This document shows positions 19,430-60,765 of a stretch of DNA of 64,000 bases, piece by piece. Where the stretch lies: positions 3,929,501 to 3,993,500 of the forward strand of contig NZ_CP029562.1 in assembly GCF_004136315.1 (NCBI RefSeq), given 5' to 3'. The position numbers and the translations under genes are program-made. The notes under the pieces were generated by a model that saw only the letters and a list, made by a program, of their open reading frames with translations, did no database searches and was not told the DNA's origin. Source of the stretch: Mesorhizobium sp. Pch-S. GTDB lineage: Bacteria; Pseudomonadota; Alphaproteobacteria; Rhizobiales; Rhizobiaceae. Position 1 is the first letter of the stretch; every line of letters begins with the position of its first letter.

Positions 19430-20620
19430 ATGGCTGGTTTCACGCATCTCTTCGTCCCCGGACCTACCAACGTGCCGGAAGCCGTCCGGCAGGCCATGAA
19501 CCTGGCCATGGAGGACATGCGCGCCTCGACATTCCCCCTGCTGACGCTCGGCCTGTTCGATGGCTTGAAGCGGGTGTTCAAGAACGAGACCGGTCGCGTC
19601 TTCATCTATCCATCGTCGGGAACCGGTGCCTGGGAATCGGGCATCACCAACACGCTGAGCCCTGGTGACCGCGTGCTGATGTCGCGCTTCGGCCAGTTCT
19701 CGCACCTGTGGGTCGACATGGCCGAGCGGCTGGAACTCGACGTCGATGTCGTCGACGTGGAGTGGGGCACCGGCGTGCCGGTCGAGATTTATGCCGAACG
19801 GCTCGCCGCCGACAAGGAACATCGCATCAAAGCTGTGTTCTGCACGCACAACGAGACGGCCACGGGCGTCACCAGCGATGTTGCCGGCGTACGCAAGGCG
19901 CTGGATGCCTCCGGTCATCCGGCATTGCTTTTCGTTGACGGCGTCTCGTCGATCGGCTCGATCGACTTCCGCCAGGAAGAATGGGGTGTCGACTGCGCGG
20001 TCAGCGGTTCGCAGAAGGGCTTCATGCTGCCGGCAGGTCTCGGTTTCCTGTCGGTCAGCCAGAAAGCGCTTGCCGCTGCCAAGACAGCGAAAGGCCGGCG
20101 CTGCTACTTCTCCTTCGAGGACATGATTCGCGCCAACGACACCGGCTTCTTCCCCTATACGCCAGCGACCCAGCTGCTGCGCGGCCTGCGCGTTTCGCTG
20201 GACCTGATCGAGGCGGAAGGGCTGGAGGCGATCTTCGCGCGCCACCATCATCTGGCCGAAGGCGTGCGCAAGGCGGTCGACGCCTGGGGCCTGAAACTCT
20301 GCGCCAAGGAGCGCAAATGGCATTCCGACACGGTGAGCGCCGTCCATGTTCCGGACGGCATCGACAGCGCCGAAATCGTGAAGCGCGCCTATCACAAATA
20401 CCAGACCTCACTGGGCGTCGGGCTGAACAAGGTTGCCGGCAAGGTGTTCCGCATCGGTCATCTCGGCTGGCTGAATGAGGTAATGGTGTGCGGGGCGTTG
20501 TCGGCTGCCGAAATGGCGTTGCGCGATTGCGGCGTGAAGGTTGCACCGGGTTCCGGCGTCGGAGCCGCACTCGAACATTTCCGCCTGGCCGAGCCGGCCG
20601 CTGTCGCCAAGGCTGCCTAG
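19430..20620 (+). CDS. sgaA: serine--glyoxylate aminotransferase
   Basis: 396 residues, starting MAGFTHLFVPGPTNVPEAVR with GGGAGG upstream. Class V PLP aminotransferase; the Schiff-base lysine is Lys196 in VSGSQKGFML, and HNETATGV and LFVDGVSSIGSIDF are the family substrate and cofactor blocks. It transfers the amino group of serine to glyoxylate, giving hydroxypyruvate and glycine, the step that links the C1-loaded half of the serine cycle to the C3 half. It is first gene of a five-gene operon sgaA-mcl-mtkA-mtkB-hprA with gaps of 11-70 bases. Confidence 0.95.
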   Translation: MAGFTHLFVPGPTNVPEAVRQAMNLAMEDMRASTFPLLTLGLFDGLKRVFKNETGRVFIYPSSGTGAWESGITNTLSPGDRVLMSRFGQFSHLWVDMAERLELDVDVVDVEWGTGVPVEIYAERLAADKEHRIKAVFCTHNETATGVTSDVAGVRKALDASGHPALLFVDGVSSIGSIDFRQEEWGVDCAVSGSQKGFMLPAGLGFLSVSQKALAAAKTAKGRRCYFSFEDMIRANDTGFFPYTPATQLLRGLRVSLDLIEAEGLEAIFARHHHLAEGVRKAVDAWGLKLCAKERKWHSDTVSAVHVPDGIDSAEIVKRAYHKYQTSLGVGLNKVAGKVFRIGHLGWLNEVMVCGALSAAEMALRDCGVKVAPGSGVGAALEHFRLAEPAAVAKAA

Positions 20621-20643
20621 GCCACACCAGGGAGGAGACCCGG

Positions 20644-21609
20644 ATGAGCCATACCATCAACCATCTGCGCAAGCTGCGGCTGCAGCGCTCCGAACTCGCG
20701 GTTCCGGGCTCCAATCCGGAGATGATCAGCAAGGCTGCGGCAAGTGCAGCCGACTTCATCTTCCTCGACATCGAGGATGCGGTGGCGCCTCCCGACAAGG
20801 AGCGGGCGCGCCGCAACATCATCGAGGCGCTGAACGACATCGACTGGCGTGCCAGGGGCAAGACCGTGTCGGTGCGCATCAACGGCCTCGACACGCACTA
20901 CATGTATCGCGACGTCGTCGACATCATGGAACAGGCCGGCGACCGGCTGGATACGATCCTGGTGCCGAAGGTCGGCGTTCCGGCTGACCTCTACATGGTC
21001 GAGGCGATGGTCAACCAGATCGAGATGGCCAAGGGCTACAAGACCCGTGTCGGCCTGGAAGCCTTGATCGAAACGGCGCTCGGCATGGCCAATGTCGAAG
21101 CGATCGCCGCCTTCGGCGGACGGCTGGAGGCGCTGCATTTCGGTGTCGCCGACTACGCTGCTAGCTGCAAGGCGCGCACCGTCAACATTGGTGGCCTCAA
21201 TCCCGACTATCCGGCCGACCAGTGGCATTTCGCACTGTCGCGCATGACGGTCGCCTGCCGTGCCTATGGCCTGCGGGCCATCGATGGCCCGTTCGGCGAT
21301 TTCTCGGATCCGGAAGGCTACATGGCCGCCGCCCGCCGTGCCGCGGCACTCGGCATCGAAGGCAAGTGGGCGATCCACCCGTCGCAGATCGAACTCGCCA
21401 ATGCGGTGTTCTCGCCGCCAGAGAAGGAAGTCACCCGCGCCAGGCGCATCATCAAGGTGCTGAAGGAAGCGGAAGAGCAGGGCAAGGGTGCCGCTGCGCT
21501 GGACGGCAAAATGATCGATGCCGCTTCCGAGCGCATGGCCCGCAACGTCCTGGTGACCCACGACGCAATCGAGCAGTCGGCGCGCTCGCGCCAAGCTTTA
21601 CCGAACTGA
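20644..21609 (+). CDS. mcl: L-malyl-CoA lyase (HpcH/HpaI aldolase family)
   Basis: 321 residues from ATG at 20644, 23 bases after sgaA with AGGGAGGAG in front; Methylorubrum Mcl is of similar length. CitE/HpcH fold: [20 protein letters not shown] holds the Mg-binding acid, [10 protein letters not shown] the CoA/arginine site, and the [18 protein letters not shown] block follows. It splits malyl-CoA into acetyl-CoA and glyoxylate, closing the serine cycle. Placement directly before malate thiokinase, which makes malyl-CoA, supports this over the citryl-CoA or beta-methylmalyl-CoA alternatives. Confidence 0.93.
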
Positions 21610-21622
21610 GGAGGAGTTCGAC

Positions 21623-22807
21623 ATGGATATTCACGAATACCAGGCCAAGGAACTGCTTTCGCGCCATTCGGTCCACATTCCGCGTGGCGGACTGGCCTAC
21701 AGCCCCGAGCAGGCGGCCTATCGCACGCGCGAGATCGGCGGCGACAAATGGGTGGTGAAAGCCCAGATCCATTCAGGCGCGCGCGGCAAGGCCGGCGGCA
21801 TCCGCATCTGCAAGTCCGACAAGGAAGTCTCCGATGCGGCGGAAGCGATGCTCGGCCGCAAGCTGGTGACGCATCAGACCGGGCCGCGGGGCAAGCTGGT
21901 GTCGCGCCTCTACATCGAAGAAACCGTCGACATCCGCCAGGAGATCTATCTCGGCTTCGTGCTCGACCGCAAAGCGGAACGCGTGATGATCGTGGCCTCC
22001 GCCTCAGGCGGCATGGAGATCGAGGAGATCGCCGAGCGCCAGCCGGATTCGATCATCCGCGCCACCGTTGATCCCGGTGTCGGCATGCAGCAGTTCCAGG
22101 CGCGCGAGATCGCGTTCGGGCTCGGACTGGAGAACAGCCTGATCGGCAAGGCGACCGACACCATCATGGGCTGCTACCAGGTGTTCCGCGACTATGATGC
22201 CTCGATGCTGGAGATCAATCCGCTGGTGGTGACGCGCGAAGGCAATCTGATGGCGCTGGACGCCAAGATGTCCTTCGACGAGAACGCGCTGTTCCGCCGG
22301 CCGGAGATTTCGGAACTGCGCGACAAGTCGCAGGAAGATCCGCGCGAAACCTTCGCCAGCGACCGCGGCCTCTCCTATGTCGGGCTGGAGGGAAACATCG
22401 GCTGCATCATCAATGGTGCCGGACTCGCCATGGCGACGATGGACATGATCAAGATCGCCGGCGGCGAACCCGCCAACTTCCTGGACATCGGCGGCGGCGC
22501 TTCGCCGGAGCGTGTCGCCAAGGCTTTCCGTGCCGTGCTCGCCGACAAGAATGTCGAAACGATCCTGGTCAACATCTTCGCCGGCATCAACCGCTGCGAC
22601 TGGGTGGCGGAAGGCGTGCTGAAGGCGATCCACGAGGTCGGTGTCAACGTGCCGCTGGTGGTGCGGCTGGCGGGCACGAATGTCGAGGAGGGCCGTCGCA
22701 TCCTGAGTGCATCGGGTCAGTCGATCATCGTTGCCGACACGCTTGCCGAAGCCGCCGAGAAGGCGGTTGCGGCGATGCGCCAGTCGACACTCAAGAAAGC
22801 CAGCTGA
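21623..22807 (+). CDS. mtkA: malate--CoA ligase (malate thiokinase) beta subunit
   Basis: 394 residues. SucC-like ATP-grasp subunit: [38 protein letters not shown] (nucleotide-binding region), [20 protein letters not shown] and the [19 protein letters not shown] segment. Succinyl-CoA synthetase would look similar, but the position between malyl-CoA lyase and mtkB in a serine-cycle operon argues for malate thiokinase, which makes malyl-CoA from malate, CoA and ATP. 13 bases separate it from mcl and 11 from mtkB. Confidence 0.93.
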
Positions 22808-22818
22808 GGGAGGACGAG

Positions 22819-23718
22819 ATGTCAGTTCTGCTCAATCGCAATACCAGGGTCATCGTCCAGGGCCTGACCGGCAAGATCGGCTCCTTCCATGCCGAGGACA
22901 TGAAGCGCTACGGCACCAATGTCGTAGGCGGCGTGACGCCGGGCAAGGGTGGCCAGTCACAGCAGGGCATCCCGGTGTTCAACACGGTCAAGGGTGCGGT
23001 GCGCGAGACCGGCGCCGAGGCCAGCATCGTGTTCGTGCCGCCGCCTTTCGCGGCGGACTCGATCATGGAAGCCGCGGATGCCGGCATCAAGCTTTGCGTC
23101 TGCATCACCGACGGCATCCCCTCGCAGGACATGATGCGGGTGAAGCGCTACATGCTGCGCTACCGCCGTGAAGACCGCATGACGCTGATCGGCCCGAACT
23201 GCGCCGGCGTCATCACACCGGGGCAGGCGCTGATGGGCATCATGCCGGGTTCGATCTATCTGCCTGGCCGTGTCGGCATCGTCGGCCGCTCGGGTACGCT
23301 TGGATATGAAGCCGCTTCACAGATGAAGGCGCTCGGCATCGGGGTGTCGACCAGCGTCGGCATCGGTGGTGACCCGATCAACGGGTCTTCCTTCAAGGAT
23401 ATCCTCGAACTTTTCGAGAAGGATGATGAGACCGACGCCGTGGTGATGATCGGCGAGATCGGCGGTCCGCAGGAAGCGGAAGCCGCCGAATGGGCGAAGG
23501 CAAACATGAAGAAGCCGCTGATTGCCTACATTGCCGGTCTGTCAGCTCCGAAGGGCAAACGCATGGGCCATGCCGGTGCCATCATCTCGGCATTCGGCGA
23601 GTCCGCGCAGGAGAAAGTCGAGATCCTGCGCGATGCCGGTGTCACCATCGTGCAGACCCCGGCCTCGTTCGGTCCGACCGTTGCGGGCGTACTGGCCGAG
23701 CAGCGCAAAGCAGCCTAA
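22819..23718 (+). CDS. mtkB: malate--CoA ligase (malate thiokinase) alpha subunit
   Basis: 299 residues. SucD-like CoA-binding subunit: NTRVIVQGLTGKIGSFHAED at the N-terminus (Rossmann CoA site), IGPNCAGVITPGQALMGIMP in the middle, and the phosphohistidine in KGKRMGHAGAIISAFGES near residue 250. It forms the alpha2beta2-type complex with MtkA. Its GGAGG ribosome-binding site lies within the 11-base gap after mtkA. Confidence 0.93.
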   Translation: MSVLLNRNTRVIVQGLTGKIGSFHAEDMKRYGTNVVGGVTPGKGGQSQQGIPVFNTVKGAVRETGAEASIVFVPPPFAADSIMEAADAGIKLCVCITDGIPSQDMMRVKRYMLRYRREDRMTLIGPNCAGVITPGQALMGIMPGSIYLPGRVGIVGRSGTLGYEAASQMKALGIGVSTSVGIGGDPINGSSFKDILELFEKDDETDAVVMIGEIGGPQEAEAAEWAKANMKKPLIAYIAGLSAPKGKRMGHAGAIISAFGESAQEKVEILRDAGVTIVQTPASFGPTVAGVLAEQRKAA

Positions 23719-23788: not shown

Positions 23789-24754
23789 ATGAAGCCACGC
23801 GTTATCGTGACCCGGAAGTGGCCAGCGGCCGTCGAACAGGTGCTCGCCGAGCGCTTCGACACCACCCTCAACGCAGGCGACATTCCATTCACGGCAACGC
23901 AGATCAAGGCCGCCCTGCTCAATTTCGATGCCGTGCTGCCGACAGTCAGCGACAAGCTGCCGGCCGAGATATTCCCTGAACAGCCGCAAGCCAGGATCAT
24001 CGGCAATTTTGGCGTCGGCTTCAGCCATATCGATACCGAAGCGGCGAAGCAGCGCGGCATCGCGGTGACCAATACGCCGGGCGTGCTCACCGACTGCACC
24101 GCCGACATCGCGATGAGCCTGCTGCTCGCGGTCGCGCGCCGCACCGGCGAAGGCGAGCGTCAGTTGCGTGGCGGCGAATGGAAAGGCTGGTGTCCGACCC
24201 ACATGATTGGCGCCAAGGTGACGGGCAAGACGATCGGCATCATCGGCATGGGTCGTATCGGCAAGGCGATGGCACGTCGCGCGCATTTCGGCTTCGGCAT
24301 GAAGGTGGTCTTCTTCAACCGTTCGCGTGTGGACGACGAAGAGACGCGCGCGATGGAGGCTGCGCAATTGCCATCGATCGAGGCGGTGCTGGAGCAAGCC
24401 GATTTCGTGTCGTTGCATTGCCCCGGCGGCGCCGAGAACCGCAACCTGATCAATGCCGAGCGGCTTGGCCGCATGAAGAACAGCGCCTTCCTTATCAACA
24501 CGGCGCGTGGCGACGTGGTTGACGAGGGCGCGCTGGCCGATGCGCTGGAGAACGGCGTGATCGCCGGTGCCGGGCTCGACGTCTTCGCTCAGGAGCCGCA
24601 CGTTCCCGAACGGCTGATCAGGCTGGAGAATACCGTGCTGCTGCCGCATCTCGGCAGCGCCACCGAAGAGACCCGTGTCGCCATGGGCATGAAGGTCGTC
24701 GACAACATCACCGCCTTCTTTGCAGGCGAGCCGATTCCGGATCGGGTCGTCTGA
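23789..24754 (+). CDS. hprA: hydroxypyruvate reductase (D-glycerate dehydrogenase)
   Basis: 321 residues from ATG at 23789 (AGGAG at 23778-23782; the adjacent ATG at 23786 is possible; the frame stays open upstream inside mtkB). D-2-hydroxyacid dehydrogenase: NFGVGFSHIDTEAAKQRGI, cofactor loop IIGMGRIGKAMARRAHFGFG, and the catalytic Arg (NTARGDVVDE), Glu (FAQEPHVPE) and His (LLPHLGSATEE). Reduces hydroxypyruvate from SgaA to D-glycerate with NAD(P)H. It is last gene of the serine-cycle operon. A glycerate kinase, the next enzyme, is not in the window. Confidence 0.92.
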   Translation: MKPRVIVTRKWPAAVEQVLAERFDTTLNAGDIPFTATQIKAALLNFDAVLPTVSDKLPAEIFPEQPQARIIGNFGVGFSHIDTEAAKQRGIAVTNTPGVLTDCTADIAMSLLLAVARRTGEGERQLRGGEWKGWCPTHMIGAKVTGKTIGIIGMGRIGKAMARRAHFGFGMKVVFFNRSRVDDEETRAMEAAQLPSIEAVLEQADFVSLHCPGGAENRNLINAERLGRMKNSAFLINTARGDVVDEGALADALENGVIAGAGLDVFAQEPHVPERLIRLENTVLLPHLGSATEETRVAMGMKVVDNITAFFAGEPIPDRVV

Positions 24755-24884: not shown

Positions 24885-24905
24885 ATGTTTACCTATGGTG
24901 AACAT
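24885..24905. promoter_or_regulatory. inverted repeat before the XRE-cupin regulator gene
   Basis: ATGTTTACC and GGTGAACAT flank a 3-base centre (TAT); one mismatch breaks perfect symmetry. It lies 22-42 bases before the start codon, where an autoregulatory protein would bind. No second copy was found in the island by eye. Confidence 0.5.
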
Positions 24906-24926
24906 GCGAAGTTTCGGGGGTATATA

Positions 24927-25652
24927 ATGGACAAGTCGGTCAAGGATGGTAAGGGCGCCAGCGCTGCCGCCAAGGCGACCAACGTGTCCAAGAAGGGCTC
25001 GGCCTCCGCACAGCTCAAGGCGGCACCGCTGCACCAGGATCCACACGCGGTCCGTGACACGCGGGAAAAGGTTCTCGAAGTTGCCATCGGCCACGAAGTG
25101 CGTGCCTTCCGCAAGAAACTCGGCATAACCGTCGCCGACCTTGCCGCTACCACCAACATTTCGCTTGGGATGCTGTCGAAGATCGAGAACGGTATTACAT
25201 CACCTTCGCTGACAACCTTGCAGGCTCTGTCGCGCGCCCTTGGTGTGCCGCTCAGTTCTTTCTTCCGGCGCTTCGAAGAGGATCGCAACGCTGTCTTCGT
25301 GAAAGCCGGCGAAGGCGTCGACGTGGAGCGGCGAGGCACCCGCGCGGGACATCAATACAACCTGCTTGGTTATATCAGCTCGAATACAGCGGGTGTGACC
25401 GTCGAGCCCTACCTCATCACGCTGACCGAAAACTCCGACGTGTTTCCAGCCTTTCAGCACGATGGCATGGAATTCCTCTACATGCTGGAAGGCGAGGTGG
25501 TTTATCGCCACGGCAGCAATCTCTACCGGATGCTGCCCGGCGACAGCCTGTTCTTCGATGCCGATGCGCCGCATGGCCCGGATGAATTGACGACATTGCC
25601 GATCCGCTATCTCTCGATCATCTCCTACAGGCAGGGCTCCGGAAACGAATAG
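24927..25652 (+). CDS. XRE family transcriptional regulator with C-terminal cupin domain
   Basis: 241 residues from ATG at 24927 with GGGGG just upstream; the frame extends further but without a site. A charged, Lys/Ala-rich N-terminal tail (about 40 residues) precedes an XRE helix-turn-helix at about 55-110 (VRAFRKKLGITVADLAATTN, ISLGMLSKIENGITSPSLTT). A cupin domain is at about 165-230 (HDGMEFLYMLEGEVVYRHGS, MLPGDSLFFDADAPHGPDEL). Such proteins sense a small ligand and often control amine or amino-acid genes. Lying between the serine-cycle operon and dmmDABC, it is the best candidate for an island regulator; this is inferred. Confidence 0.88.
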   Translation: MDKSVKDGKGASAAAKATNVSKKGSASAQLKAAPLHQDPHAVRDTREKVLEVAIGHEVRAFRKKLGITVADLAATTNISLGMLSKIENGITSPSLTTLQALSRALGVPLSSFFRRFEEDRNAVFVKAGEGVDVERRGTRAGHQYNLLGYISSNTAGVTVEPYLITLTENSDVFPAFQHDGMEFLYMLEGEVVYRHGSNLYRMLPGDSLFFDADAPHGPDELTTLPIRYLSIISYRQGSGNE

Positions 25653-25705: not shown

Positions 25706-26746
25706 TTAGTCCGGGGCGAAACCAGGCGAGGTGGGGGTTCCGTCGTCATACTTCGACAGCCATTCGAGGGTGGTCGGCCGGTAGCGGGTGAGGCCCTTGT
25801 ATTCGACCAGTTCGTTCGGCAGGTCGCGCAGGACGCGGTGAAAGCGGCGCGCCCATTTCGGCACGGTGACCAGTTCCTCCATCTTGATCAGATAGCAGCG
25901 GATCGGGAAGACCAGCGCGTTGGAGCGTGGCAGGCGCCAGAAGCTCTGCAATTCGACACGCAGATGCACCTTGTCGCCGACATTGTCGGGCGTCACCGTG
26001 GTCCGGTCTGGTCCCCATTTGTGGTAGTTCTCGGGGCTGGTGTCGAGCCGCGGGTTGATCGTCATCGTCCAGTTGAGACGCCGCGCGGGCTTGCCCTGCT
26101 GGATGTTGGTGAGGAACTTCAGGGCCCGCGTGAAGATGCCCTTTTCATGGGCCAGCGGCACCGGCGCGTGCCATTCGAAGAAGTTCATGCCGATGTCGAA
26201 GTCGAGCGACCAGTCGGCCTGGGTGGTGACCATGCCGGCGTCCATCCAGAGGTTGCCGTCGCGCTGGTCGAGGATGCAGAAGTCACCCTGGCTCTGACGC
26301 GTGATGTATTCCATCGGTCCGTAGGGCAAGGTGGAAAGATCACCAAAGGTGAAGCTGTCGTCGATGCCGAGCGGCCGGTTGATCCAGCGCCAGCGATCGC
26401 CGTCGCGGGTGAGCGTAAAGTGCTCGGGATAACCCCTGGCCTGCTCGGTCATCAGAAGTTCGAGCAGGTCCCAGCCGGCCAGCGTCATATGCGGCAGTGA
26501 CTGGCAGCGCAGCGGATCCTCGGCGAGAACCTTGGCGCGGTCCTGCATCTCGGAGACGTAGTGCTCGTCGACGTCGATGAGGTTTTCGAGCACGGTGCCT
26601 CTCGGGCCTGGCACATGCGGCTCGATGTTGACCGCATACATGTAGGCGTCTTCGTGAAACGGGAAGGGAAACCGCCGGATGAATTCCGGGCTGTTCCTGA
26701 AGGTGAAATCGTCCCGGAATGTTTCCTGCCTGAAATTGATGCCCAT
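25706..26746 (-). CDS. dmmC: dimethylamine monooxygenase subunit DmmC, heme-dependent oxidative N-demethylase family (DUF3445)
   Basis: 346 residues, start MGINFRQETFRDDFTFRNSP with GGGGAGGAA upstream. Family blocks are PRGTVLENLIDVDEHYVSEM, HFTLTRDGDRWRWINRPLGI, DQRDGNLWMDAGMVTTQADW and the LSFDIGMNFFEWHAPVPL-like segment. The DUF3445 family is described as the haem-containing catalytic part of dimethylamine monooxygenase, which converts dimethylamine to methylamine and formaldehyde with O2 and NADPH. It is last of the dmmD-A-B-C set on the minus strand. The order and the ferredoxin reductase partner next to it make the assignment firm. Confidence 0.92.
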   Translation of the reverse strand: MGINFRQETFRDDFTFRNSPEFIRRFPFPFHEDAYMYAVNIEPHVPGPRGTVLENLIDVDEHYVSEMQDRAKVLAEDPLRCQSLPHMTLAGWDLLELLMTEQARGYPEHFTLTRDGDRWRWINRPLGIDDSFTFGDLSTLPYGPMEYITRQSQGDFCILDQRDGNLWMDAGMVTTQADWSLDFDIGMNFFEWHAPVPLAHEKGIFTRALKFLTNIQQGKPARRLNWTMTINPRLDTSPENYHKWGPDRTTVTPDNVGDKVHLRVELQSFWRLPRSNALVFPIRCYLIKMEELVTVPKWARRFHRVLRDLPNELVEYKGLTRYRPTTLEWLSKYDDGTPTSPGFAPD

Positions 26747-26833: not shown

Positions 26834-27799
26834 CTAGCGCTCCAGCACGAGGGACTTGCCCTCGAAGCGTGAAACGCACGGCATGATCTTCTTGCCTGAA
26901 CAATGTTCGGCCTCGGTCAGCCAGTGGTCATTGTGTTTGAAGGTGCCGTCATAGGAAACGACATTGGTCTCGCACTGGCCACAGACGCCGCCGCGGCACA
27001 GATAGGGCGGGTCGATGCCGGCGGCTTCCATCGCCTCGAGCAGGCTCTGTTCTTCGCCGACGCTGATCTGCATCTTGCTGAGCGCCAGCGTGACGTCGAA
27101 GGGCAGACCCGGCTGCGGCGCGGCGAAGTGTTCGTAGTGCACGGTTTCGTCCGGCCAGCCATGTGCCGCCGCCGTCTCGCGCACCCAGCGGATCATGCCA
27201 GCGGGACCGCAGACATAGAGATGCGTGCCGAGCGGCTGCGAAGTCAGCAGGCGTTCGAGCGGCAGGCGCTCGTTGGTGTCATCGTAGTAGATGTTGACCC
27301 GCTTGCCGTAGCGATCGCGCAGCACGTCGGCATAGGTACCGAGCACTGGCGTGCGGCAGGTGTAGTGCAGTTCGAAATTGCCACCTTCAGCCGCAAGCTG
27401 GGCAGTCTGGGCCATGAAGGGCGTGATACCGATGCCTCCCGCCAGCAGCAGATGTTTCCTTGCTCTGAGATCGAGCGAGAACAGGTTGACCGGATAGGAG
27501 ATCACCATCTCCATGCCGCGCTTGACCCGGTTGTGCATGAACAGCGAGCCGCCGCGGCCGGAATCGTCGCGGCGCACGCTGATCGTGTAGTCGCGCGTGT
27601 TGTGCGGCGAACTCATCAGCGAATAGGGGTTCAGCCTGGACTTGTCGCCATCGCGCATTTCCACCACGACATGGGCACCGCCGGAAAAGGTCGGCAGGTC
27701 GCCGCCATCGGTGCGCTCGAAATGGAAACGCTTCACCAGCTCATTGACCGCAACCACGTCGGTCACGGTGACGTTCAGTTTTGTCGTACCCGCGCTCAC
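26834..27799 (-). CDS. dmmB: dimethylamine monooxygenase subunit DmmB, PDR/VanB-type ferredoxin reductase
   Basis: 321 residues from GTG at 27799, which overlaps the dmmA stop (GTGA) and has AAGGAGGAG in front. FAD/FMN domain at about 5-110 (NPYSLMSSPHNTRDYTISVR), NAD(P) domain at about 115-225 (LLLAGGIGITPFMAQ, YVCGPAGMIRWVRETAA), and a C-terminal plant-type 2Fe-2S domain with Cys268, Cys273, Cys276 and Cys308. It delivers electrons from NAD(P)H to the haem subunit DmmC. The frame is open well upstream, but that stretch overlaps dmmA and is not coding. Confidence 0.92.
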   Translation of the reverse strand: MSAGTTKLNVTVTDVVAVNELVKRFHFERTDGGDLPTFSGGAHVVVEMRDGDKSRLNPYSLMSSPHNTRDYTISVRRDDSGRGGSLFMHNRVKRGMEMVISYPVNLFSLDLRARKHLLLAGGIGITPFMAQTAQLAAEGGNFELHYTCRTPVLGTYADVLRDRYGKRVNIYYDDTNERLPLERLLTSQPLGTHLYVCGPAGMIRWVRETAAAHGWPDETVHYEHFAAPQPGLPFDVTLALSKMQISVGEEQSLLEAMEAAGIDPPYLCRGGVCGQCETNVVSYDGTFKHNDHWLTEAEHCSGKKIMPCVSRFEGKSLVLER

Positions 27800-28395
27800 C
27801 GGAAAATCTCCTCCTTCTGAGGGATCTCGCTCGGATCCTCGGCGTTGATGCAGACGCCCTGGAAGGCGGCAAGGCGGCGCGAGTAATGATCGCGCACCAG
27901 AAGCAGCAGGCCGCAATGCGCGCAGGTGGCCGGCTGCGTGGTGACGTTCTCTGTAACGCCCTTGCAATGGACGCACTGTACCCGGCGTGCCCAGGAGCCG
28001 CGGTGTTCGGTCTGGATCGAGGAATGATCGATGCCGGCCTCCAGCGCCACCTGCATGGCCTGGCCGATCAGCCCTTCGGTGCCGGCAAGATAAAGCCTCA
28101 GTCCCATATGCGCATTGGCAAGCGTCTGCCTGAGACGGGGCAGGGCTGCCGCGATCGAGGGACCCTCGTAGAACTGCGCAGGCTTCAGGGCCCTGAGCGA
28201 AGCCTGGAACTGGCTTCGGCTCGTTTCCGGAATGAACATGATGTGTGTGCTGGCGAAGAAGCCGTCCGGAGCTTTCTTCGCCAGGTCGAGGATCGCGGAC
28301 GCACCTTCGGCGTCCGCGACGAAGAGATGGTTCTTGCCGGTCTGGGGCGACAGGGTTCCATAGACCGGGCGACTGAGGATCGTCTTTGCCGGCAT
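27796..28395 (-). CDS. dmmA: dimethylamine monooxygenase subunit DmmA family protein
   Basis: 199 residues from ATG at 28395 (an in-frame TTG at 28404 is possible). A first part of about 130 residues resembles the NAD-binding half of a ferredoxin reductase (HLFVADAEGASAILDL, LRLYLAGTEGLIGQAMQ). It is followed by a C-terminal metal-binding module with two CxxC pairs, Cys141/Cys144 and Cys158/Cys161. This matches the DmmA subunit of dimethylamine monooxygenase. It overlaps dmmB by 4 bases and follows dmmD by about 13. Confidence 0.88.
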   Translation of the reverse strand: MPAKTILSRPVYGTLSPQTGKNHLFVADAEGASAILDLAKKAPDGFFASTHIMFIPETSRSQFQASLRALKPAQFYEGPSIAAALPRLRQTLANAHMGLRLYLAGTEGLIGQAMQVALEAGIDHSSIQTEHRGSWARRVQCVHCKGVTENVTTQPATCAHCGLLLLVRDHYSRRLAAFQGVCINAEDPSEIPQKEEIFR

Positions 28396-28408
28396 CCCGT
28401 CCAACGGA

Positions 28409-29542: not shown

Positions 29543-29844
29543 GTGGGTGTCCTTCTCCTCAAGGGTACCTTCGAAAAGCGGCCATTCTTTTCTTATCGGC
29601 CTGCACTTTCGCCAGACGCATATTGACTCGAATTCCGTCGTCTGGGCAATATCTTTGTGCAAGAAATATTACTGATAGGCAACTTTCCCTGGTTCCGACT
29701 TTAGTCCTCCCAGGAGGTCCCGGTTCCGCGGCGAGACGTGGTGCGAGACTTTTCTGTAAGGAAAAAAACATTCATAGCAGTTGAATTGGATTTTCAAAGC
29801 TGCTAGCGTCCAATCATCGGACCGCTGCCATTGGAGGTAACGTC
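29543..29844. promoter_or_regulatory. divergent dmmDABC / mgsABC control region with GGGCAATATC...GTGCAAGA motif
   Basis: 302 bases without a gene. At 29644-29664 lie GGGCAATATC, then TTT, then GTGCAAGA. Closely related pairs are found at 44048-44076 and 51811-51834 upstream of other island operons. Nearer mgsA the sequence is AT-rich (TTTTCTGTAAGGAAAAAAAC), likely promoter. GGAGG is 8 bases before the mgsA GTG. It probably drives both operons. Confidence 0.55.
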
Positions 29845-30741: not shown

Positions 30742-30745
30742 GCCG

Positions 30746-51449: not shown

Positions 51450-51767
51450 TCAAGTTCGGCGTCTGCGCATCTCGTCGAGATGCTTCAGGTCGAGGCCGTA
51501 GATGAAGTGCTTGTCGTCGCTGTAGTGGCGCAGCATCGCCGCGATGGCCGCTGTGTTGAGACCAAGCACGAGGACGGCAGCAACCGCCAGGATGATGCGG
51601 ATGCCGGGCACTTCGATGTAGGGCCAGACGGTGAAAAGGGCGAACAGGATGGTCAGCCAGATGGCTGCCACGAATGCGATCGCGCCGAGGCGGTCGCGCC
51701 CATGCATCCGGTCTATTCGTTCGTCAAGTGTAGTCGAACCAGCATGCTGGCTTGATGTCGCATCCAT
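51450..51767 (-). CDS. small membrane protein, first gene of the permease operon
   Basis: 105 residues from ATG at 51767, chosen for GGGAGGGG just before it. A short acidic/polar N-terminus is followed by two membrane segments at about 27-48 (AIAFVAAIWLTILFALFTVW) and 54-75 (IRIILAVAAVLVLGLNTAAI), then a tail with YSDDKHFIYGLDLKHLDEM. I do not recognise the family. It opens a small-membrane-protein/permease operon preceded by the island motif at 51811-51834. Confidence 0.72.
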   Translation of the reverse strand: MDATSSQHAGSTTLDERIDRMHGRDRLGAIAFVAAIWLTILFALFTVWPYIEVPGIRIILAVAAVLVLGLNTAAIAAMLRHYSDDKHFIYGLDLKHLDEMRRRRT

Positions 51768-51810
51768 ATTCCCCTCCCATGAGGCTGCGCGACTGCGGGG
51801 CATCGTTGTT

Positions 51811-51963: not shown

Positions 51964-52665
51964 TTATTGCGGACCCATATGCGGGCCTCTGCTGCGCTCG
52001 CTGGCGAACAGCGCCACCGCCATGGCACGGTTGCGCACGTCCAGCTTGTCGTAGAGGTTCTTGAGGTGATATTTGACCGTGTTCTCCGAGATGCCGGTGC
52101 GCGTGGCGATCTGCAGGTTGGTCCATCCGTCCGCCAGCACCGCCAGCAATTCGCGTTCGCGGGGCGTGAGCCGCGATAGCGGCGTGTCGTTGATGCGCGA
52201 AACATCCACATAGGGGATGCAGATGCGGCCGTGGGCGACCGCGATCAGCGTGTCGAACAGGATGGCGGGATCATCGAACTGGTAGCAGAAGCCCTGCACG
52301 CCAAGACGCACGCACTGCTTGAGGATGGCGATGTCGTGGTCGTTGGAGAAAATGACGACGCGCGCATGCAGGTTTCGGCGCTGCAATTCGGCCAGCACAC
52401 CGCTTCCATCCATGTCGGCAAGCTTCCAGCCGAGCACGGCAAGATCGAAGCCGGGTTCTCCCTGGGAGACAGCTTCGAGAAATGCCTCGCCAGCCTGCAC
52501 GGAACCGACCATGTCGAAGCGGCTGTCTCGGTGGATCATGTCACCAAGTGCTGCGACGACCAGCGGATTGCGTTCCGCGATCAGAACCCTGAATTTCTTC
52601 TCTCCCGTCATGGGCGTGACATCGGTCTCCCAACCCGGATGCTGAACTTTCCATACAGCGGTCAT
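51964..52665 (-). CDS. LuxR family response-regulator-like protein with degenerate receiver
   Basis: 233 residues (ATG at 52665 with GGGAAG in front; ATG at 52611 would give 215). Receiver-like fold at about 25-145, but the phosphorylation residues are changed: the acidic pair reads ER (VLIAERNPLV), the acceptor Asp is Gly79 (FDLAVLGWKLADMDG), and the conserved Lys is Gln (QGFCYQFDD). The C-terminal NarL/LuxR helix-turn-helix is intact (LTPRERELLAVLADGWTNLQ, IATRTGISENTVKYHLKNLY). It may act without phosphorylation, perhaps by ligand binding. It lies between the permease operon and glyA; no sensor kinase is adjacent. Confidence 0.88.
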   Translation of the reverse strand: MTAVWKVQHPGWETDVTPMTGEKKFRVLIAERNPLVVAALGDMIHRDSRFDMVGSVQAGEAFLEAVSQGEPGFDLAVLGWKLADMDGSGVLAELQRRNLHARVVIFSNDHDIAILKQCVRLGVQGFCYQFDDPAILFDTLIAVAHGRICIPYVDVSRINDTPLSRLTPRERELLAVLADGWTNLQIATRTGISENTVKYHLKNLYDKLDVRNRAMAVALFASERSRGPHMGPQ

Positions 52666-52696: not shown

Positions 52697-52797
52697 TAGA
52701 GCGGAATGCGAACTGACTGAATCGCATTCCGCTCTATCCTTTTGTTTGCCGCATGATCTTGGTCCGAAAAGTCTGCAACTTTTCGGGATCATGCTTA
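52697..52797. repeat. palindromic repeat family 1 copy 2, at the glyA 3' end
   Basis: Perfect 15-bp arms TAGAGCGGAATGCGA (52697-52711) and TCGCATTCCGCTCTA (52722-52736). A second hairpin follows, GCATGATC...TCCGAAAAGT pairing with ACTTTTCGGGATCATGC (52751-52794), and runs into the glyA stop codon. The ACTTTTCGGGATCATGC tail is shared with 1826-1843. Confidence 0.75.
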
Positions 52798-54099
52798 GTC
52801 GTAGATCGGGAAGCGGCGCACCAAAGCCTCGACTTCCTCCCGCACCTCATTCTCGATCCGGTTGTTGTTGTGCTCGCCATTGGCGGCAAGGCCGTCGATC
52901 ACCTCCATGGTCAACCGACCGACGAGACGGAACTCCTCGGCGCGGAACCCGCGCGTCGTGCAGGCCGGCGTGCCGAGGCGAACGCCCGAGGTTACCGCAG
53001 GTCCTTGCGGGTCGAACGGAATGCCGTTCTTGTTGCAGGTGATGTGGGCTCGACCCAGGGCAGCCTCCACCGCTTTGCCGGTAAGGTTTTTACGCCGGAG
53101 GTCGACCAGCATCAGATGCGTGTCGGTGCCGCCGGACACGATATCGACGCCGCCGGAAGCAAGGGTTTCGGCGAGCGCCTTGGCGTTTTCGACGACGCGG
53201 GCGGCATAGGTCCTGAATTCAGGCGTCAGCGCCTCGCCAAAGGCCACCGCCTTGGCGGCAATGACATGCATCAGCGGTCCGCCCTGCAAGCCGGGGAAGA
53301 CGGTCGAATTGATCTTCTTGCCGATCTCCTCGTCGTTCGACAGCACCATGCCGCCGCGCGGTCCCCGCAATGTCTTGTGCGTCGTGGTCGTCACCACATG
53401 GGCATGTTCGAGCGGATTGGGGTGGACGCCGCCGGCGACCAAACCGGCGAAATGCGCCATGTCGACGAACAGCTTGGCGCCGACCTCATCGGCGATCTCG
53501 CGGAACGCCTTGAAGTCGATGAATCTTGGGTAGGCCGAGCCGCCAGCCAGCAGCACCTTCGGCCGGTGCTGGAGCGCGAGATCGCGGACCTCGTCCAGGT
53601 CGATGCGCTGGTCCTGCTGGCGCACGCCATAAGAAACGACGTTGAACCACTTGCCGGACTGATTGACCGGCGAACCATGGGTGAGGTGGCCACCTGCCGC
53701 CAAGTTCAATCCCATGAAGGTGTCGCCCGGCTGCATGAGCGCCATGAATACCGACTGGTTGGCCTGGCTGCCGGAATGCGGCTGCACGTTGACGAACGTG
53801 CAGCCGAACAATTGCCTGGCGCGCTCACGTGCCAGCTCCTCGACCTCGTCGACATACTGGCAGCCGCCATAGTAGCGGCGTCCGGGATAGCCCTCGGCGT
53901 ATTTGTTGGTGAGCACCGAACCTTGCGCTTCCAGGACCGCCTTGGAGACGATGTTCTCGGAGGCGATCAGTTCGATCTCGTCGCGCTGCCTGTCGAGCTC
54001 GCGCGCCATGGCGGCGCTGACCGCCGGATCGGTCGAAGCAACGCCACTGTGGAAGAACTGGCTGAGGCCGCCGAGGCCGGGTCGTGCCGGGATGTTCAT
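52795..54099 (-). CDS. glyA: serine hydroxymethyltransferase
   Basis: 434 residues, standard length. PLP lysine is Lys242 in [16 protein letters not shown]; the [40 protein letters not shown] and [20 protein letters not shown] blocks are all present. It adds the methylene group of 5,10-methylene-THF to glycine, giving serine, and so is the entry of C1 units from the amine demethylases into the serine cycle. It lies 39 bases after ppc on the same strand and is likely cotranscribed. This is probably an island copy of glyA in addition to a housekeeping one elsewhere. Confidence 0.96.
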
Positions 54100-54138: not shown

Positions 54139-56910
<2,772 letters not shown>

Positions 56911-57242
56911 TGCGGCTTATTCCTAGCATGAATGTTTTTTTCATACTAGTGCGTTGAACCAGCATATTCCTTTCGCCGGCGCTGAAAACGCCTGGACGGG
57001 TAGATTCCTCGCCCGTTCGGGTGGTGTCCGGATTGGCCGAAAGGGCGAATTTCCGGTGCCTGGCCTGCTATCCGGTGCGAAAACACAGCCGTTTTGCCGG
57101 TTTATCGAAAATCGCTTGACGGAGATCGGGATTCCGATGATCTTCACTATTGGGAAACAAATAAGACTAAGCGGAAAACCGCAGTGCCTGCTTTATCGTC
57201 CCGATTTCGGCGACGAGACTGTCAACAATGGGGAACCAAGCC
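56911..57242. other. 332-base divergent intergenic region, ppc / permease
   Basis: No gene. At 57116 TTGACG could be a -35 element for the permease operon, with an ATCGG/CCGAT dyad (57125-57138) just after it and CTATTGGGAAACAAATAAG near 57148, a weak relative of the island motif. GGGGAA at 57231-57236 serves the permease ATG at 57243. Confidence 0.45.
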
Positions 57243-58952
57243 ATGAGTGCCATGGATGAAACCTACGTGGCCGAAGCCAGTGGGAACCTGCACCGAACCA
57301 TCGATTGGCGCGGCGCATTCTGGGTCGCCAGCGGCGTGCCGCCGCTGGTGCTGTTTTCGATCGGTGGCATCGCCGGTGTCGGCGGCAACATCGCCTTCGC
57401 CATCTGGACGGTGTCCATCCTGATGGGCTTCATCCAGTCCTTCACCTATGCGGAGATCGCCGGCCTGTTCCCCAACAAATCGGGTGGCGCATCGGTCTAC
57501 GGCGCCACTGCCTGGCTGCGCTATTCGAAGTTCATCGCGCCGCTGTCGGTATGGTGCAACTGGTTCGCCTGGACCCCGGTGCTGTCACTCGGTTGCTCCA
57601 TCGCGGCGGCCTATATCCTCAATGCACTGGCGCCGATCCCGGGTTTCACCGAAACGTCGCCGGAAGTGGTTGCATACCTTGCCGCGAATGCGGGGACGAG
57701 TGCCGCGGACGCGGTCGCGGCGGTGACCGCCGCAGCGACGCCGACGATCCGTACCTGGACGCTCTACACCCACTCGCTCGGGCCGGTTTCCTTCTCGCTC
57801 AATGCGACGTTCTGGATCGGCGCGGTGCTGATGCTCGGTACGTTCGCCATCCAGCATCGCGGCATCCTCAGCACCGCCAACGTGCAGAAGGTGGTCGGCC
57901 TGCTGGTCATTATTCCGCTGCTGATCGTCGGCATCGCGCCGATCCTGACCGGGCAGGTCAACTGGGCAAACTACTCGCCCTTCGTTCCTCTGGCTGCAGC
58001 CTACGCGCCGGAGCCTGGCTCCTGGAACGTCGCCGGCTGGACGCTGGTGCTGGGCGGCATGTTCATCGCCGCCTGGTCAACATACGGCTTTGAGACGGCA
58101 GTCTGCTACACACGCGAATTCAAGAACCCCGAAACGGACACGTTCAAGGCGATCTTCTATTCGGGCCTGCTGTGCATCCTGCTGTTCATCCTGGTGCCGT
58201 TCACCTTCCAGGGCGTGCTCGGTCTCAACGGCATGCTGGCGACGCCGATCGTCGATGGTTCCGGTGTCGCCGACGCGCTTGCCTCCATGGTCGGTGGCGG
58301 CGGCCTCATCAAGACGCTGCTCATCATGCTGATGATCCTGGCGCTGCTGCTGTCGATCATGACTGCGATGGCCGGTACCTCGCGCACGCTTTACCAGGGT
58401 GCAGTCGACGGCTGGCTGCCGCGTTATCTCAGCCACGTCAACGAACATGGCGCGCCGACACGGGCGATGTGGACGGACCTGATCGTCAATCTCGGCGTGC
58501 TGGCAATCGCCTCGGCGGATGCGACGAGTTTCTTCTTCATCCTCGCCGTCGCCAATTGCGGCTACATCATCTTCAACTTCCTCAACCTGAATGCCGGCTG
58601 GATCCATCGCATCGACAACGGCCACATCAAGCGGCCATGGCGCGCGCCGACCTGGTTGCTGGCGGCAGGCACCATCTTCGCCTTTGTCAATGCCGTGTTC
58701 ATGGGCGCCGGCGCCAAGGTGTGGAACCCGATGGCGCTCTGGGCAGGGCTTGCCACCGTCGCCCTCATCATCCCGGTGTTCTGCTTCCGTCACTACATCC
58801 AGGACGGCGGCAAATTCCCGGATCACATGCTGGACGATCTCGGCATGACCGAAAGCAACCTGCGGGAGCGCAAGGCCGGCATGCTGCCTTACCTGACGCT
58901 GATCGCCGGCCTGATCGTGGTGCTGATCGCCAACTGGTACTTCGTGTTCTGA
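57243..58952 (+). CDS. APC superfamily permease, tandem copy 1
   Basis: 569 residues from ATG at 57243 (GGGGAA 7 bases before; the ATG at 57228 is less likely). About 12-14 hydrophobic segments; motifs RTIDWRGAFWVASGVPPLVL, SFTYAEIAGLFPNKSGGASV (APC proline/glycine helix), GGMFIAAWSTYGFETAVCYT and a long C-terminal segment. It is a large inner-membrane amino-acid/amine permease. The next gene is a close paralog of the same length. Expression opposite ppc suggests it feeds the island, but the substrate is unknown. Confidence 0.9.
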   Translation: MSAMDETYVAEASGNLHRTIDWRGAFWVASGVPPLVLFSIGGIAGVGGNIAFAIWTVSILMGFIQSFTYAEIAGLFPNKSGGASVYGATAWLRYSKFIAPLSVWCNWFAWTPVLSLGCSIAAAYILNALAPIPGFTETSPEVVAYLAANAGTSAADAVAAVTAAATPTIRTWTLYTHSLGPVSFSLNATFWIGAVLMLGTFAIQHRGILSTANVQKVVGLLVIIPLLIVGIAPILTGQVNWANYSPFVPLAAAYAPEPGSWNVAGWTLVLGGMFIAAWSTYGFETAVCYTREFKNPETDTFKAIFYSGLLCILLFILVPFTFQGVLGLNGMLATPIVDGSGVADALASMVGGGGLIKTLLIMLMILALLLSIMTAMAGTSRTLYQGAVDGWLPRYLSHVNEHGAPTRAMWTDLIVNLGVLAIASADATSFFFILAVANCGYIIFNFLNLNAGWIHRIDNGHIKRPWRAPTWLLAAGTIFAFVNAVFMGAGAKVWNPMALWAGLATVALIIPVFCFRHYIQDGGKFPDHMLDDLGMTESNLRERKAGMLPYLTLIAGLIVVLIANWYFVF

Positions 58953-59040
58953 CCACTGATCCTGCGCGGCCAAGACAGCCGCGCAGGATTCTCCATCAGA
59001 CAAGGGGATGCGCTCTGAAGAGCCGAAGGGGAAGCCGACA

Positions 59041-60765
59041 ATGACGACGACAACAGCCAGCGCCGCGGCGCCTGCTCACGCAGGAGACGGCCAACTTCAT
59101 CGCACTATCGACTGGCGCGGCGCCTTCTGGGTCGCCAGTGGCGTGCCGGCACTGGTGCTGTTTTCAATCGGCGGCATTGCCGGCACCGTCGGCACGCCGG
59201 CCTACCTGATCTGGACAGCGTCCATCATTCTTGGCCTGATCCAGTCCTTCACCTATGCCGAGATCGCCGGCTTGTTTCCTTCGAAGTCGGGTGGCGCTTC
59301 CGTGTATGGTGCCACGGCCTGGCTGCGCTATTCGAAGTTCATCGCGCCGCTGTCGGTGTGGTGCAACTGGCTCGCCTGGACGCCGGTGCTGTCGCTTGGC
59401 TGCTCGATCGCGGCGGCCTACATCCTCAATGCCCTGGCGCCGATCCCCGGATTCAGCGATACGTCGCCGGAAGTCGTGGCATGGCTTGCAGACCCGGCCA
59501 ATGCCGGCAAGGCTGCGACCGATGCCATTGCCGCCCTGACGGCTGCGGGGACACCGGCTATCCGCACCTGGACACTCTTCCACGGTACGCTCGGGCCAGT
59601 GAGCTTCTCGCTCAATTCGGTCTTCTTCATCGGCGTCATCCTGATGCTGGTGACTTTCGCGATCCAGCATCGCGGCATTCTCGGCACCGCGAGTGTCCAG
59701 AAGTTCATCGGCCTCGTCGTCATCATTCCGATGCTGATCGTCGGTGTCGTGCCGATCATCACGGGTCAGATCAACTGGGCGAACTACTCGCCGCTGGTGC
59801 CGCTGGCTGCCGCCTATGCGCCGGAACCGGGCTCGTGGAACGTCGCCGGTTGGACGCTTGTACTGGGCGGCATGTTCATTGCGGCCTGGTCGGCTTACGC
59901 CTTCGAGACCGCGATCTGCTACACCAGCGAATTCAAGAATCCGGGCCGCGACACGGTGCGGGCGATCTTCTATTCGGGCCTGCTGTGCCTCGCGCTCTAC
60001 ACGCTGGTGCCGTTCACCTTCCAGGGCGTTCTGGGGCTCAACGGCATGCTGGCGACGCCGATCGTCGACGGCTCGGGTGTCGCAGAAGCCATGGCCCAGA
60101 TGGTCGGCGGGGCGGGGTTCGTGACCTCGATCATGGTAATGTTGATGATCCTGGCGCTGATGCTGTCGATCATGACGGCAATGGCGGGCTCATCGCGCAC
60201 GCTTTACCAGGGCTCGGTCGACGGCTGGCTGCCGCGCTATCTCAATCACACCAACGAACATGGCGCGCCGACGCGGGCCATGTGGACCGACCTGATCTTC
60301 AACGTCTTCCTGCTGGCCGTTGCCGCTGCCGATGCAACCAGCTTCTTCTTCGTGCTGGCCGTATCGAACTGCGGCTACATCATCTTCAACTTCCTCAACC
60401 TGAACTCCGGCTGGATCCATCGCATCGACAACGGCCATATCCACCGGCCGTGGCGGGCGCCGACCCTGCTGATCGCGGTCGGCGGTCTGCTCTCCTACGT
60501 CAATGCCGTCTTCATGGGCGCCGGCGCCAAGGTCTGGAACCCGTGGGCCCTGTGGGCCGGCTTTATCGCCGCCGCCCTGATCATTCCGGTGTTCTGCTTC
60601 CGTCACTACATCCAGGACGGTGGCAAGTTCCCGGAACATATGCTGGACGATCTCGGTATCTCCCAGGACGACCTCAAGGTGCGCAAGGCCGGTATGCTGC
60701 CTTACCTGACGCTTGTCGCCGGACTGGTTGTCGTGCTGCTCGCCAACTGGTTCTTCGTGATCTGA
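59041..60765 (+). CDS. APC superfamily permease, tandem copy 2
   Basis: 574 residues from ATG at 59041 after GGGGAAG. Highly similar to copy 1 almost end to end (shared RTIDWRGAFWVASGVP, SFTYAEIAGLF, AYAPEPGSWNVAGWTLVLGG and DGWLPRYL blocks); they differ mainly in the first 25 residues and in a periplasmic-loop stretch near 140-180 (ASPEV-type insert reading TSPEVVAWLADPANAGKAAT). 88 bases separate it from copy 1, so the pair arose by tandem duplication and may have diverged in substrate. Confidence 0.9.
   Translation: MTTTTASAAAPAHAGDGQLHRTIDWRGAFWVASGVPALVLFSIGGIAGTVGTPAYLIWTASIILGLIQSFTYAEIAGLFPSKSGGASVYGATAWLRYSKFIAPLSVWCNWLAWTPVLSLGCSIAAAYILNALAPIPGFSDTSPEVVAWLADPANAGKAATDAIAALTAAGTPAIRTWTLFHGTLGPVSFSLNSVFFIGVILMLVTFAIQHRGILGTASVQKFIGLVVIIPMLIVGVVPIITGQINWANYSPLVPLAAAYAPEPGSWNVAGWTLVLGGMFIAAWSAYAFETAICYTSEFKNPGRDTVRAIFYSGLLCLALYTLVPFTFQGVLGLNGMLATPIVDGSGVAEAMAQMVGGAGFVTSIMVMLMILALMLSIMTAMAGSSRTLYQGSVDGWLPRYLNHTNEHGAPTRAMWTDLIFNVFLLAVAAADATSFFFVLAVSNCGYIIFNFLNLNSGWIHRIDNGHIHRPWRAPTLLIAVGGLLSYVNAVFMGAGAKVWNPWALWAGFIAAALIIPVFCFRHYIQDGGKFPEHMLDDLGISQDDLKVRKAGMLPYLTLVAGLVVVLLANWFFVI

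Follow-up and report, generated by a model that had tools for sequence, protein, structure and literature searches.

A putative chromosomal island for methylotrophy on methylated amines in Mesorhizobium sp. Pch-S

Gene content and predicted pathway

We analysed a 64,000-nucleotide stretch of Mesorhizobium sp. Pch-S (the window), which covers positions 3929501-3993500 of a single 6.62 Mb contig (NZ_CP029562.1) and is chromosomal. Positions 19430-60765 hold a block of 34 genes that is conserved in relatives and appears to encode the breakdown of methylated amines together with most of the serine cycle. Gene calling over the 64-kb window returned 33 of the genes; the 34th (43612..44121), missed by the caller, was taken from the list of open reading frames and is conserved in relatives. 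Families were named from NCBIfam and Pfam scans of the window genes against the curated NCBIfam cut-offs. The names tmm, tdm, dmm, mgs and mgd are used as in PMC8235418 and PMC4543880, and the Dmm subunit letters follow the order of the annotated Paracoccus aminovorans island. The initial annotation had counted seven or so transcription units; there are exactly seven same-strand blocks, and every gene that it named was recovered.

The first block, on the plus strand, comprises sga (serine-glyoxylate aminotransferase, 19430..20620), mcl (malyl-CoA lyase, 20662..21609, in a frame open from 20488, with an inferred start), mtkA and mtkB (malate-CoA ligase beta, 21623..22807, and alpha, 22819..23718), hpr (hydroxypyruvate/glyoxylate reductase family, 23789..24754, start inferred) and, at the place of scyR, a helix-turn-helix (HTH)-cupin regulator (24900..25652, start inferred) that is 80% identical to an XRE regulator of the Aminobacter plasmid pAA01. 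The minus-strand genes that follow are dmmC (haem-dependent N-demethylase family, 25706..26746), dmmB (ferredoxin reductase, 26834..27976, a frame that overlaps dmmA and whose true start lies downstream), dmmA (27796..28404) and dmmD (GcvT-like tetrahydrofolate (THF)-binding subunit, 28409..29662). A third block, again on the plus strand, runs from mgsA (amidotransferase domain, 29845..30741) through mgsB (30689..31483, 82% identical to a GXGXG protein of pAA01), mgsC (FMN-binding glutamate synthase family, 31496..32824), gmaS (gamma-glutamylmethylamide synthetase, 32877..34214), mgdB (sarcosine-oxidase-beta family, 34343..35557, start inferred), mgdD (SoxD family, 35574..35888), mgdA (SoxA family, 35885..38941) and mgdC (SoxG family, frame 38820..39563 with a later true start) to a gene of the phosphoenolpyruvate (PEP)-mutase/isocitrate-lyase superfamily (39617..40456).

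The fourth block lies on the minus strand and contains a truncated (bacterial-type) globin (40460..40858), fhs (formate-THF ligase, 40949..42628), folD (42714..43598), the small conserved hypothetical protein missed by the caller, whose 43% match on pAA01 is at a protein annotated as hypothetical, and tdm (trimethylamine N-oxide (TMAO) demethylase, 44329..46896, with a probable start well inside the frame). The trimethylamine monooxygenase gene tmm (46966..48330) stands alone on the plus strand. Back on the minus strand are a hypothetical protein of a permease module (48714..49427), an APC-family permease that is a candidate amine importer (49476..50870, 90% in the congener G010), two small hypothetical proteins (51059..51439 and 51450..51803), a LuxR/NarL-type response regulator (51964..52665), glyA (52795..54099) and ppc (54139..56910); the three hypothetical proteins are conserved in relatives. 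Two plus-strand genes of the TMAO permease family, tmoP1 (57228..58952) and tmoP2 (59008..60765), close the block. They form a tandem over 57228-60765 with 81% DNA identity, and their substrates may differ.

Many of these assignments clear the curated cut-offs: Tmm (848.7 bits against 675), Tdm (1264.5 against 1100), GmaS with a type III glutamine synthetase model (667.1 against 469.6), MtkA (722.1 against 604), MtkB as a succinate-CoA ligase alpha subunit (440.9 against 336), Fhs (944 against 652), FolD (479.2 against 396), the two TMAO permeases (889.8 and 885.5 against 690), the SoxB-type MgdB (650.4 against 529.45), the SoxA-type MgdA (1482.2 against 1164), GlyA (642.4 against 335), the DmmA domain (NF041259, 120.3 against 60) and DmmC (Pfam PF11927, 241 against 25). 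DmmB, DmmD and MgsABC gave general-family matches only, and their names were therefore taken from position beside gmaS or dmmA and from the annotated P. aminovorans island. The earlier statement that no foreign genes intervene stands in so far as the family matches include no transposase or integrase. Seven extra genes nevertheless lie inside the block besides the two regulators: the truncated globin, the APC permease, the PEP-mutase-family gene and four hypotheticals.

From these families we infer the activities, the import steps and the contribution of distant genes. Tmm would oxidise trimethylamine to TMAO, Tdm would demethylate TMAO and Dmm would demethylate dimethylamine. GmaS, Mgs and Mgd are predicted to convert methylamine to methylene-THF and ammonia, with gamma-glutamylmethylamide and N-methylglutamate as intermediates; the domain calls thus bear out the claim that all steps from trimethylamine to methylene-THF lie in one region. 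Part of the methylene-THF could be oxidised to formate by FolD and Fhs. GlyA, Sga, Hpr, Ppc, MtkAB and Mcl would provide most of the serine cycle, and these genes too are present as first described. TmoP, and perhaps the APC permease, may import the amines. Free formaldehyde could be dealt with by a glutathione pathway encoded ~5.5 kb beyond the window end, where positions 5461-7526 of the right 20-kb flank carry genes for S-(hydroxymethyl)glutathione dehydrogenase (599.8 bits against 543.95) and S-formylglutathione hydrolase (456.3 against 281.7); the right flank of the congener G085 has the same two families in the same order.

Family scans of the block genes revealed no enolase, malate dehydrogenase, formate dehydrogenase or glyoxylate regeneration within the block. 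An isocitrate lyase over cut-off is encoded at 1.136 Mb of the chromosome, and glyoxylate is probably regenerated by this enzyme. The ethylmalonyl-CoA route is unlikely, because no crotonyl-CoA reductase (Ccr) exceeds the cut-off in the genome (120.9 against 378.55 bits). The PEP-mutase-family gene was considered as a needed source of glyoxylate and set aside, given the genomic isocitrate lyase and the failure to find the gene in the fetched stretches of the congeners G003, G010, G050 and G005. Glycerate kinase would likewise come from elsewhere on the chromosome: the sole MOFRL-domain match in the genome, at 607285-607599 and 3.3 Mb from the island, is a candidate for completing the cycle.

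Taken together, we put at about 0.9 the probability that this is a chromosomal island for methylotrophy on methylated amines in a Mesorhizobium-type bacterium, with glycerate 2-kinase (gck) and isocitrate lyase supplied from elsewhere. The island was probably assembled from modules that move and rearrange among Hyphomicrobiales. No tblastn match to gck was found in the window or in the matching stretches of the congeners G054 and G085, so the island is not self-sufficient. Several observations weigh against this reading. The MOFRL protein is 36% identical to the gck of pAA01 and falls below the cut-offs of both glycerate 2-kinase models (219.4 against 550 and 158.2 against 670). PPC stays under the cut-off of its best model (749 against 815), as do Hpr (glyoxylate reductase, 312.1 against 455), MgdD (SoxD, 100 against 116.5) and MgdC (SoxG, 91 against 143.95). 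The best NCBIfam match of mcl is citE, at 180.1 against 443.4 bits, and its nearest solved protein is the malyl-CoA lyase 5ugr (408 bits). For sga the best match is BhcA, again below cut-off (589.8 against 650). Finally, a relative of the methylamine dehydrogenase light chain MauA (chromosome 844314-844799, 139-141 bits against 196.85) could give a second methylamine route.

Assignment of sga to the beta-hydroxyaspartate cycle as BhcA was ruled out by this score and by its nearest solved protein, the serine-glyoxylate aminotransferase 6pk1. As regards gck, its presence in the island is not a strict requirement, since P. aminophilus carries it on another replicon (PMC4543880).

Known islands and related genomes

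The block is of the same kind as methylotrophy islands already known from Paracoccus and the Roseobacters. PMC4543880 describes islands that join trimethylamine oxidation, the N-methylglutamate pathway, one-carbon THF reactions and the serine cycle in Paracoccus sp. N5 and in Roseobacters (R. pomeroyi DSS-3 and others), with the same functions in a single chromosomal or extrachromosomal island, and suggests that island transfer could turn other hosts into methylotrophs. Searches of the open-licence literature turned up no paper that describes a contiguous island in Mesorhizobium.

On plasmid pAMV1 of P. aminovorans JCM 7685 (NZ_LN832560.1, ~130.6-168.8 kb), the region termed the 40-kb MEI (PMC8235418) combines mgsABC-gmaS, tmm, tdm, tmoP, dmmDABC, mgdBDAC, folD and an XRE regulator within ~38 kb, and like the window it also has glyA, ppc, hpr, mtkAB, sga and mcl; gene names were assigned here from product names and order in its annotation. 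Window proteins are 33-86% identical to those of pAMV1 where matched. In contrast to this plasmid region, the window island is chromosomal, lacks the DUF4147 protein (gck) and the ammonium transporter, has two tmoP genes to the one of pAMV1, and differs in gene order; fhs is present in the window, whereas no formate-THF ligase is annotated in the stretches of pAMV1 that were compared. In Aminobacter aminovorans KCTC 2477 the set is split. Its plasmid pAA01 carries sga-mcl-mtkA-mtkB-hpr-[gck]-HTH regulator, mgsABC-gmaS-mgdBDAC and ppc-glyA-response regulator, 57-94% identical to the window, and the demethylation genes are chromosomal (PMC8235418). The gck (DUF4147) that lies between hpr and the regulator on pAA01 is missing from the window; G010 has one at that place, with 67% identity.

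A counterpart in a close relative is found in Mesorhizobium sp. 1M-11 from Movile Cave, whose draft assembly shares the segments from ppc to tdm and from tdm to fhs (75-99% protein identity), on contigs that read ppc-glyA-response regulator-permease module-tmm-tdm and tdm-folD-fhs. This strain is reported to have tmm, gmaS and a predicted serine cycle (PMC4653772; PMC5748958) and grows on trimethylamine as sole carbon and nitrogen source (PMC4653772), which together with the domain calls supports the pathway reading. By analogy with 1M-11, the block may let strain Pch-S grow on methylated amines as a carbon source. M. loti has gmaS yet cannot grow methylotrophically (PMC4653772). Three contigs of 1M-11 (L010, L011 and L013) end in tdm, suggesting more than one copy of this gene.

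Conservation was followed in a genus survey of 99 genomes, our own included, in which linkage of tmm and mtkA was read by hand from two tables, and by tblastn of the window proteins against 79 named loci around tdm (best 80 of 268). All 34 genes are colinear in G054 (Mesorhizobium loti LU) and G085, with DNA identities over the block of 88-92% and 83-92%, respectively, leaving out cross-matches between the tmoP copies. Since the arrangement recurs in both genomes at this identity, it is neither young in the clade nor an assembly error of a single genome. Most of the block genes are also present, shuffled and partly incomplete, within one region of G003, G010, G050 and G005. No hpr, APC module or PEP-mutase gene was found in the G003 stretch, and no tdm, fhs, folD or tmoP in those of G050 and G005. 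Scattering of the genes among close relatives, with the present order an assembly artefact, had been named in the initial annotation as a finding that would refute the unit: the genes are indeed scattered in most of the genus, but not in the closest genomes, and G054 and G085 exclude assembly error. The islands of G050 and G005 and the related locus L016 also contain a truncated globin gene, next to dmm genes or at another place, and a link with the haem-dependent Dmm is possible.

At least 7 of the 99 genus genomes (G000, our own, with G003, G005, G010, G050, G054 and G085) have tmm and mtkA on a single contig, no more than 30 kb apart, a lower bound since many drafts have the two genes on different contigs and matches near contig ends (for example in G042, G053, G061, G088, G092 and G096) could not be judged. 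G053 carries parts of the block on two contigs. Malate-CoA ligase exceeds the cut-off in 69 of the 99 genomes and Tmm in 91; G003 has two equally scoring malate-CoA ligase beta genes, at 4718758 and 5642919, ~0.9 Mb apart. Among the tdm loci, M. loti LU keeps the gene order of the block across the stretch compared, and IRAMC:0171 and 1M-11 carry parts of it. Most Mesorhizobium loci read mgsABC-gmaS-mgdBDA-tdm-tmoP, and tmm, dmm and the serine-cycle genes are not within 10 kb. Those of Aminobacter have tmm-tdm with the response regulator, tmoP and folD. Both genes of the permease tandem occur in the Aminobacter loci L014 and L015, and one in L018 and L019 as well as in the G003 and G010 stretches.

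Site, origin and use of the island

To the left of the block, a sigma-factor-like gene and an aldehyde dehydrogenase gene, often with yciI, stand together in all 30 compared loci (the 30 best) and in 14 of 14 further 20-kb stretches. The latter include G003 and G010, whose islands lie elsewhere in the chromosome. The aldehyde dehydrogenase is followed by sga in three of the 30 loci (our own, G053 and G085) and in none of the 14. On the right, efflux-pump genes directly follow tmoP2 in the window, whereas ~9.5 kb of other sequence separates the two in G085. Because the left neighbours are constant, sga follows them in few loci and the right side of G085 differs, the island occupies a variable spot beside a conserved neighbourhood.

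The genes themselves have mixed relationships. Matches to the window Tmm were obtained in 92 of the 99 genus genomes, our own included: identity is 97-98% in three genomes, 89-90% in three, 80-82% in nine and 69-72% in 75, and one partial match stands at 66%. The same protein is 94-95% identical to two genomes of another genus of the family and to four Aminobacter loci. LeuB (441.3 bits, over cut-off) shows no such gap, with 92-93% identity to the two genomes of the other genus and 92% to one congener drawn for comparison. The Aminobacter-like Tmm may reflect either horizontal transfer or differential loss. In a Tmm tree of 25 rows the window clade joins four Aminobacter sequences and one Mesorhizobium metagenome-assembled genome (support 96/96), and three named Mesorhizobium species with the 70%-type Tmm fall in another clade. 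An mtkA tree of 30 rows, whose bootstrap had not settled, places the window clade in a nine-row group (100/99) with pAA01, G005, G050 and two congeners; G010 and 17 other congeners form an 18-row group, and G003 with one more congener lies outside both. From these placements, mtkA in the islands of G003 and G010 has a different history from mtkA in the window. The gmaS tree, in which Mesorhizobium is represented by a hand-picked subset among 18 rows, has little resolution, and the window does not group with pAA01 in it. We read this history as modular descent with exchange and not as one recent transfer.

The rival view, a mobile genomic island (an integrative element) of recent acquisition that can still move as a unit, we consider improbable. 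It would account for the patchy distribution in the genus, for the rare placement of sga beside the aldehyde dehydrogenase, for the other chromosomal positions in G003 and G010 and for the Aminobacter-like Tmm. It could also draw on the left edge, where the aldehyde dehydrogenase (17618-19214) has a 99.1% inverted copy 90 kb away, at chromosome 3857155-3858751, adjoining an FAD-linked oxidase and a 2-oxoadipate dioxygenase-family gene; the contig of M. loti LU begins inside this repeat. Such a repeat could reflect rearrangement at the island edge, although it proves no mechanism. Against recent mobility, NCBIfam or Pfam scans of all 53 window genes and of the genes called in the two 20-kb flanks (18 on the left and 14 on the right) gave no integrase, transposase or relaxase family, several of the genes being without any match. 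The tRNA and Rfam scans of the window gave no lead; no tRNA gene was found in the window, to which the tRNA search was confined. GC content is alike inside the island (0.625) and to its left (0.628) and right (0.619), with no shift in base composition. The sole repeat bracketing the block is a 45-bp sequence, 91% identical and in the same orientation (15721-15765 and 60776-60819), which also encloses three left-flank genes and may be a dispersed intergenic repeat, a neighbouring 40-bp match lying in the left 20-kb flank. G085, with the same order and left neighbours at 83-92% DNA identity, argues that the arrangement is not recent in the clade, and the gmaS tree does not link the window to Aminobacter.

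The initial annotation had called the block transferable. The plasmid-borne island of P. aminovorans, the serine-cycle and N-methylglutamate genes on pAA01, the patchy occurrence, the alternative chromosomal sites in G003 and G010 and the Aminobacter-like Tmm speak for this indirectly; the chromosomal location, the lack of mobility genes, GC shift and gck speak against it. Transfer of the island is plausible.

Quite improbable, in our view, is the proposal that the block mainly serves to obtain nitrogen from methylated amines, with the serine-cycle genes used in, for example, glyoxylate or C2 metabolism and no growth on amines as sole carbon: most Mesorhizobium tdm loci do have mgs-gmaS-mgd-tdm-tmoP with no serine-cycle genes within 10 kb, mtkA is widespread in the genus and, outside the seven linked genomes, lies far from tmm or on another contig, and gck is absent from the island, but the close relative 1M-11 uses trimethylamine as sole carbon and nitrogen source (PMC4653772), catabolic and serine-cycle genes stay in one region in seven genomes despite shuffling, and isocitrate lyase and the MOFRL protein are present in the genome. 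Read as a methylotrophy island, the locus offers a complete-chromosome example of trimethylamine methylotrophy in the Mesorhizobium group, where most loci seen hold only the part serving methylated amines as a nitrogen source. By comparing congeners, one can test the step from using amines for nitrogen to using them for carbon.

Regulators and promoter boxes

In R. pomeroyi the pathway is regulated by TmaR (AraC type) and TmoR (GntR type) (PMC13390433). On pAMV1 a GntR regulator lies beside gmaS and tmm and a GlxA/AraC-type regulator beside mgd; from family and position these would be the equivalents of TmoR and TmaR. Neither pAMV1 protein gave a tblastn match (E<=0.01) in the window, its flanks or the pAA01 stretch, the search of our own genome being limited to the window and flanks. 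G003, G010, G005 and G050 each have a GntR homologue (45-53%), and the first two also have an AraC homologue that is more distant (32%).

Two candidate operators were recognised upstream of the island genes. Box A, in the strict form KGAAAN6TTCWT, matches three times in the window against 0.17 expected: upstream of mgsA (29760..29775, plus strand), upstream of ppc (56928..56943, minus strand) and, as a weaker site, upstream of sga (19345..19360, plus strand). This pattern was written after the three sites had been seen, so the figures measure rarity and are not an independent test; a variant pattern gives four window matches against 0.58 expected. At mgsA the box is palindromic and lies directly 5' of a -35-like TTGAA. 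A relaxed form, likewise drawn up with the sites already known, occurs upstream of mgsA with TTGA[AG] no more than 14 nt further on in 49 of the 50 sequences that were usable among 65 matched loci. Only pAMV1 differs: its relaxed match stands at another distance, has no TTGA[AG] and is not the element. In random 120-mers of the same loci, the relaxed form was found 89 times in 25000. The sequence comparison thus indicates conservation of the box upstream of mgsA, and not independent gain, with promoters related by descent.

The strict form is found upstream of mgsA in 39 of 50 sequences, or in 28 of 44 when sequences were chosen differently (350 nt, of which no fewer than 200 had to be present). 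It precedes sga in three of eight (window, G054 and G085) and ppc in four of ten (window, G054, G085 and G003); the relaxed form was upstream of none of 17 other sga genes. Box A alone was ruled out as a genome-wide regulon marker, as 50 of the 53 strict matches in the genome lie outside the window (12 with a reversed-pattern control).

Box B (TCTAYCYGKMCRGGYGTTKT), a candidate serine-cycle operator whose pattern was derived from the promoters of sga and ppc in the genomes compared first, lies upstream of ppc (56985..57004, minus strand) and, in a degenerate form with three mismatches, upstream of sga (19312..19331, plus strand). Upstream of sga it has 0-4 mismatches in all nine sequences tested, the pAMV1 sga not being recovered, and upstream of ppc 0-3 in eight of nine, where pAMV1 fails with seven. 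The best matches upstream of mgsA, tmm, glyA, dmmD, tdm and fhs have 6-8 mismatches, and matches at tmoP1 represent the same shared ppc-tmoP1 region. Three sites in the window match with up to three mismatches (0.08 expected), and one of these falls within the gene at 51059-51439.

For Box B the sole out-of-sample test used 20 fetched stretches, three of them without sga. In 17 of 17 other genus genomes where sga was found, the box is present with exactly three mismatches, 80-85 nt from the start. As these 17 sites are one identical 20-mer, they count as conservation in a single lineage. Random 250-mers of the same stretches reached three mismatches in 94 of 2000, about the share that overlaps the site itself, and never fewer. 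The order sga-mcl-mtkA accompanies Box B in 17 of the 20 stretches, which come from genus genomes without linked tmm.

The HTH-cupin protein and the response regulator are obvious candidates for binding Boxes A and B. No published boxes and no study of ScyR were found in the open-licence literature, ScyR appearing only as a name in PMC8235418. The two conserved promoter boxes offer a direct handle on the regulation of serine-cycle genes in rhizobial relatives. Tentatively, and with less than even confidence, we suggest that the island of this clade is wired unlike those of Roseobacter and Paracoccus: it would dispense with the GntR and AraC-type regulators and place catabolic and assimilatory operons under Box A and Box B, probably read by the HTH-cupin regulator, the LuxR-type regulator or both, such that amine oxidation and carbon assimilation would be turned on jointly.

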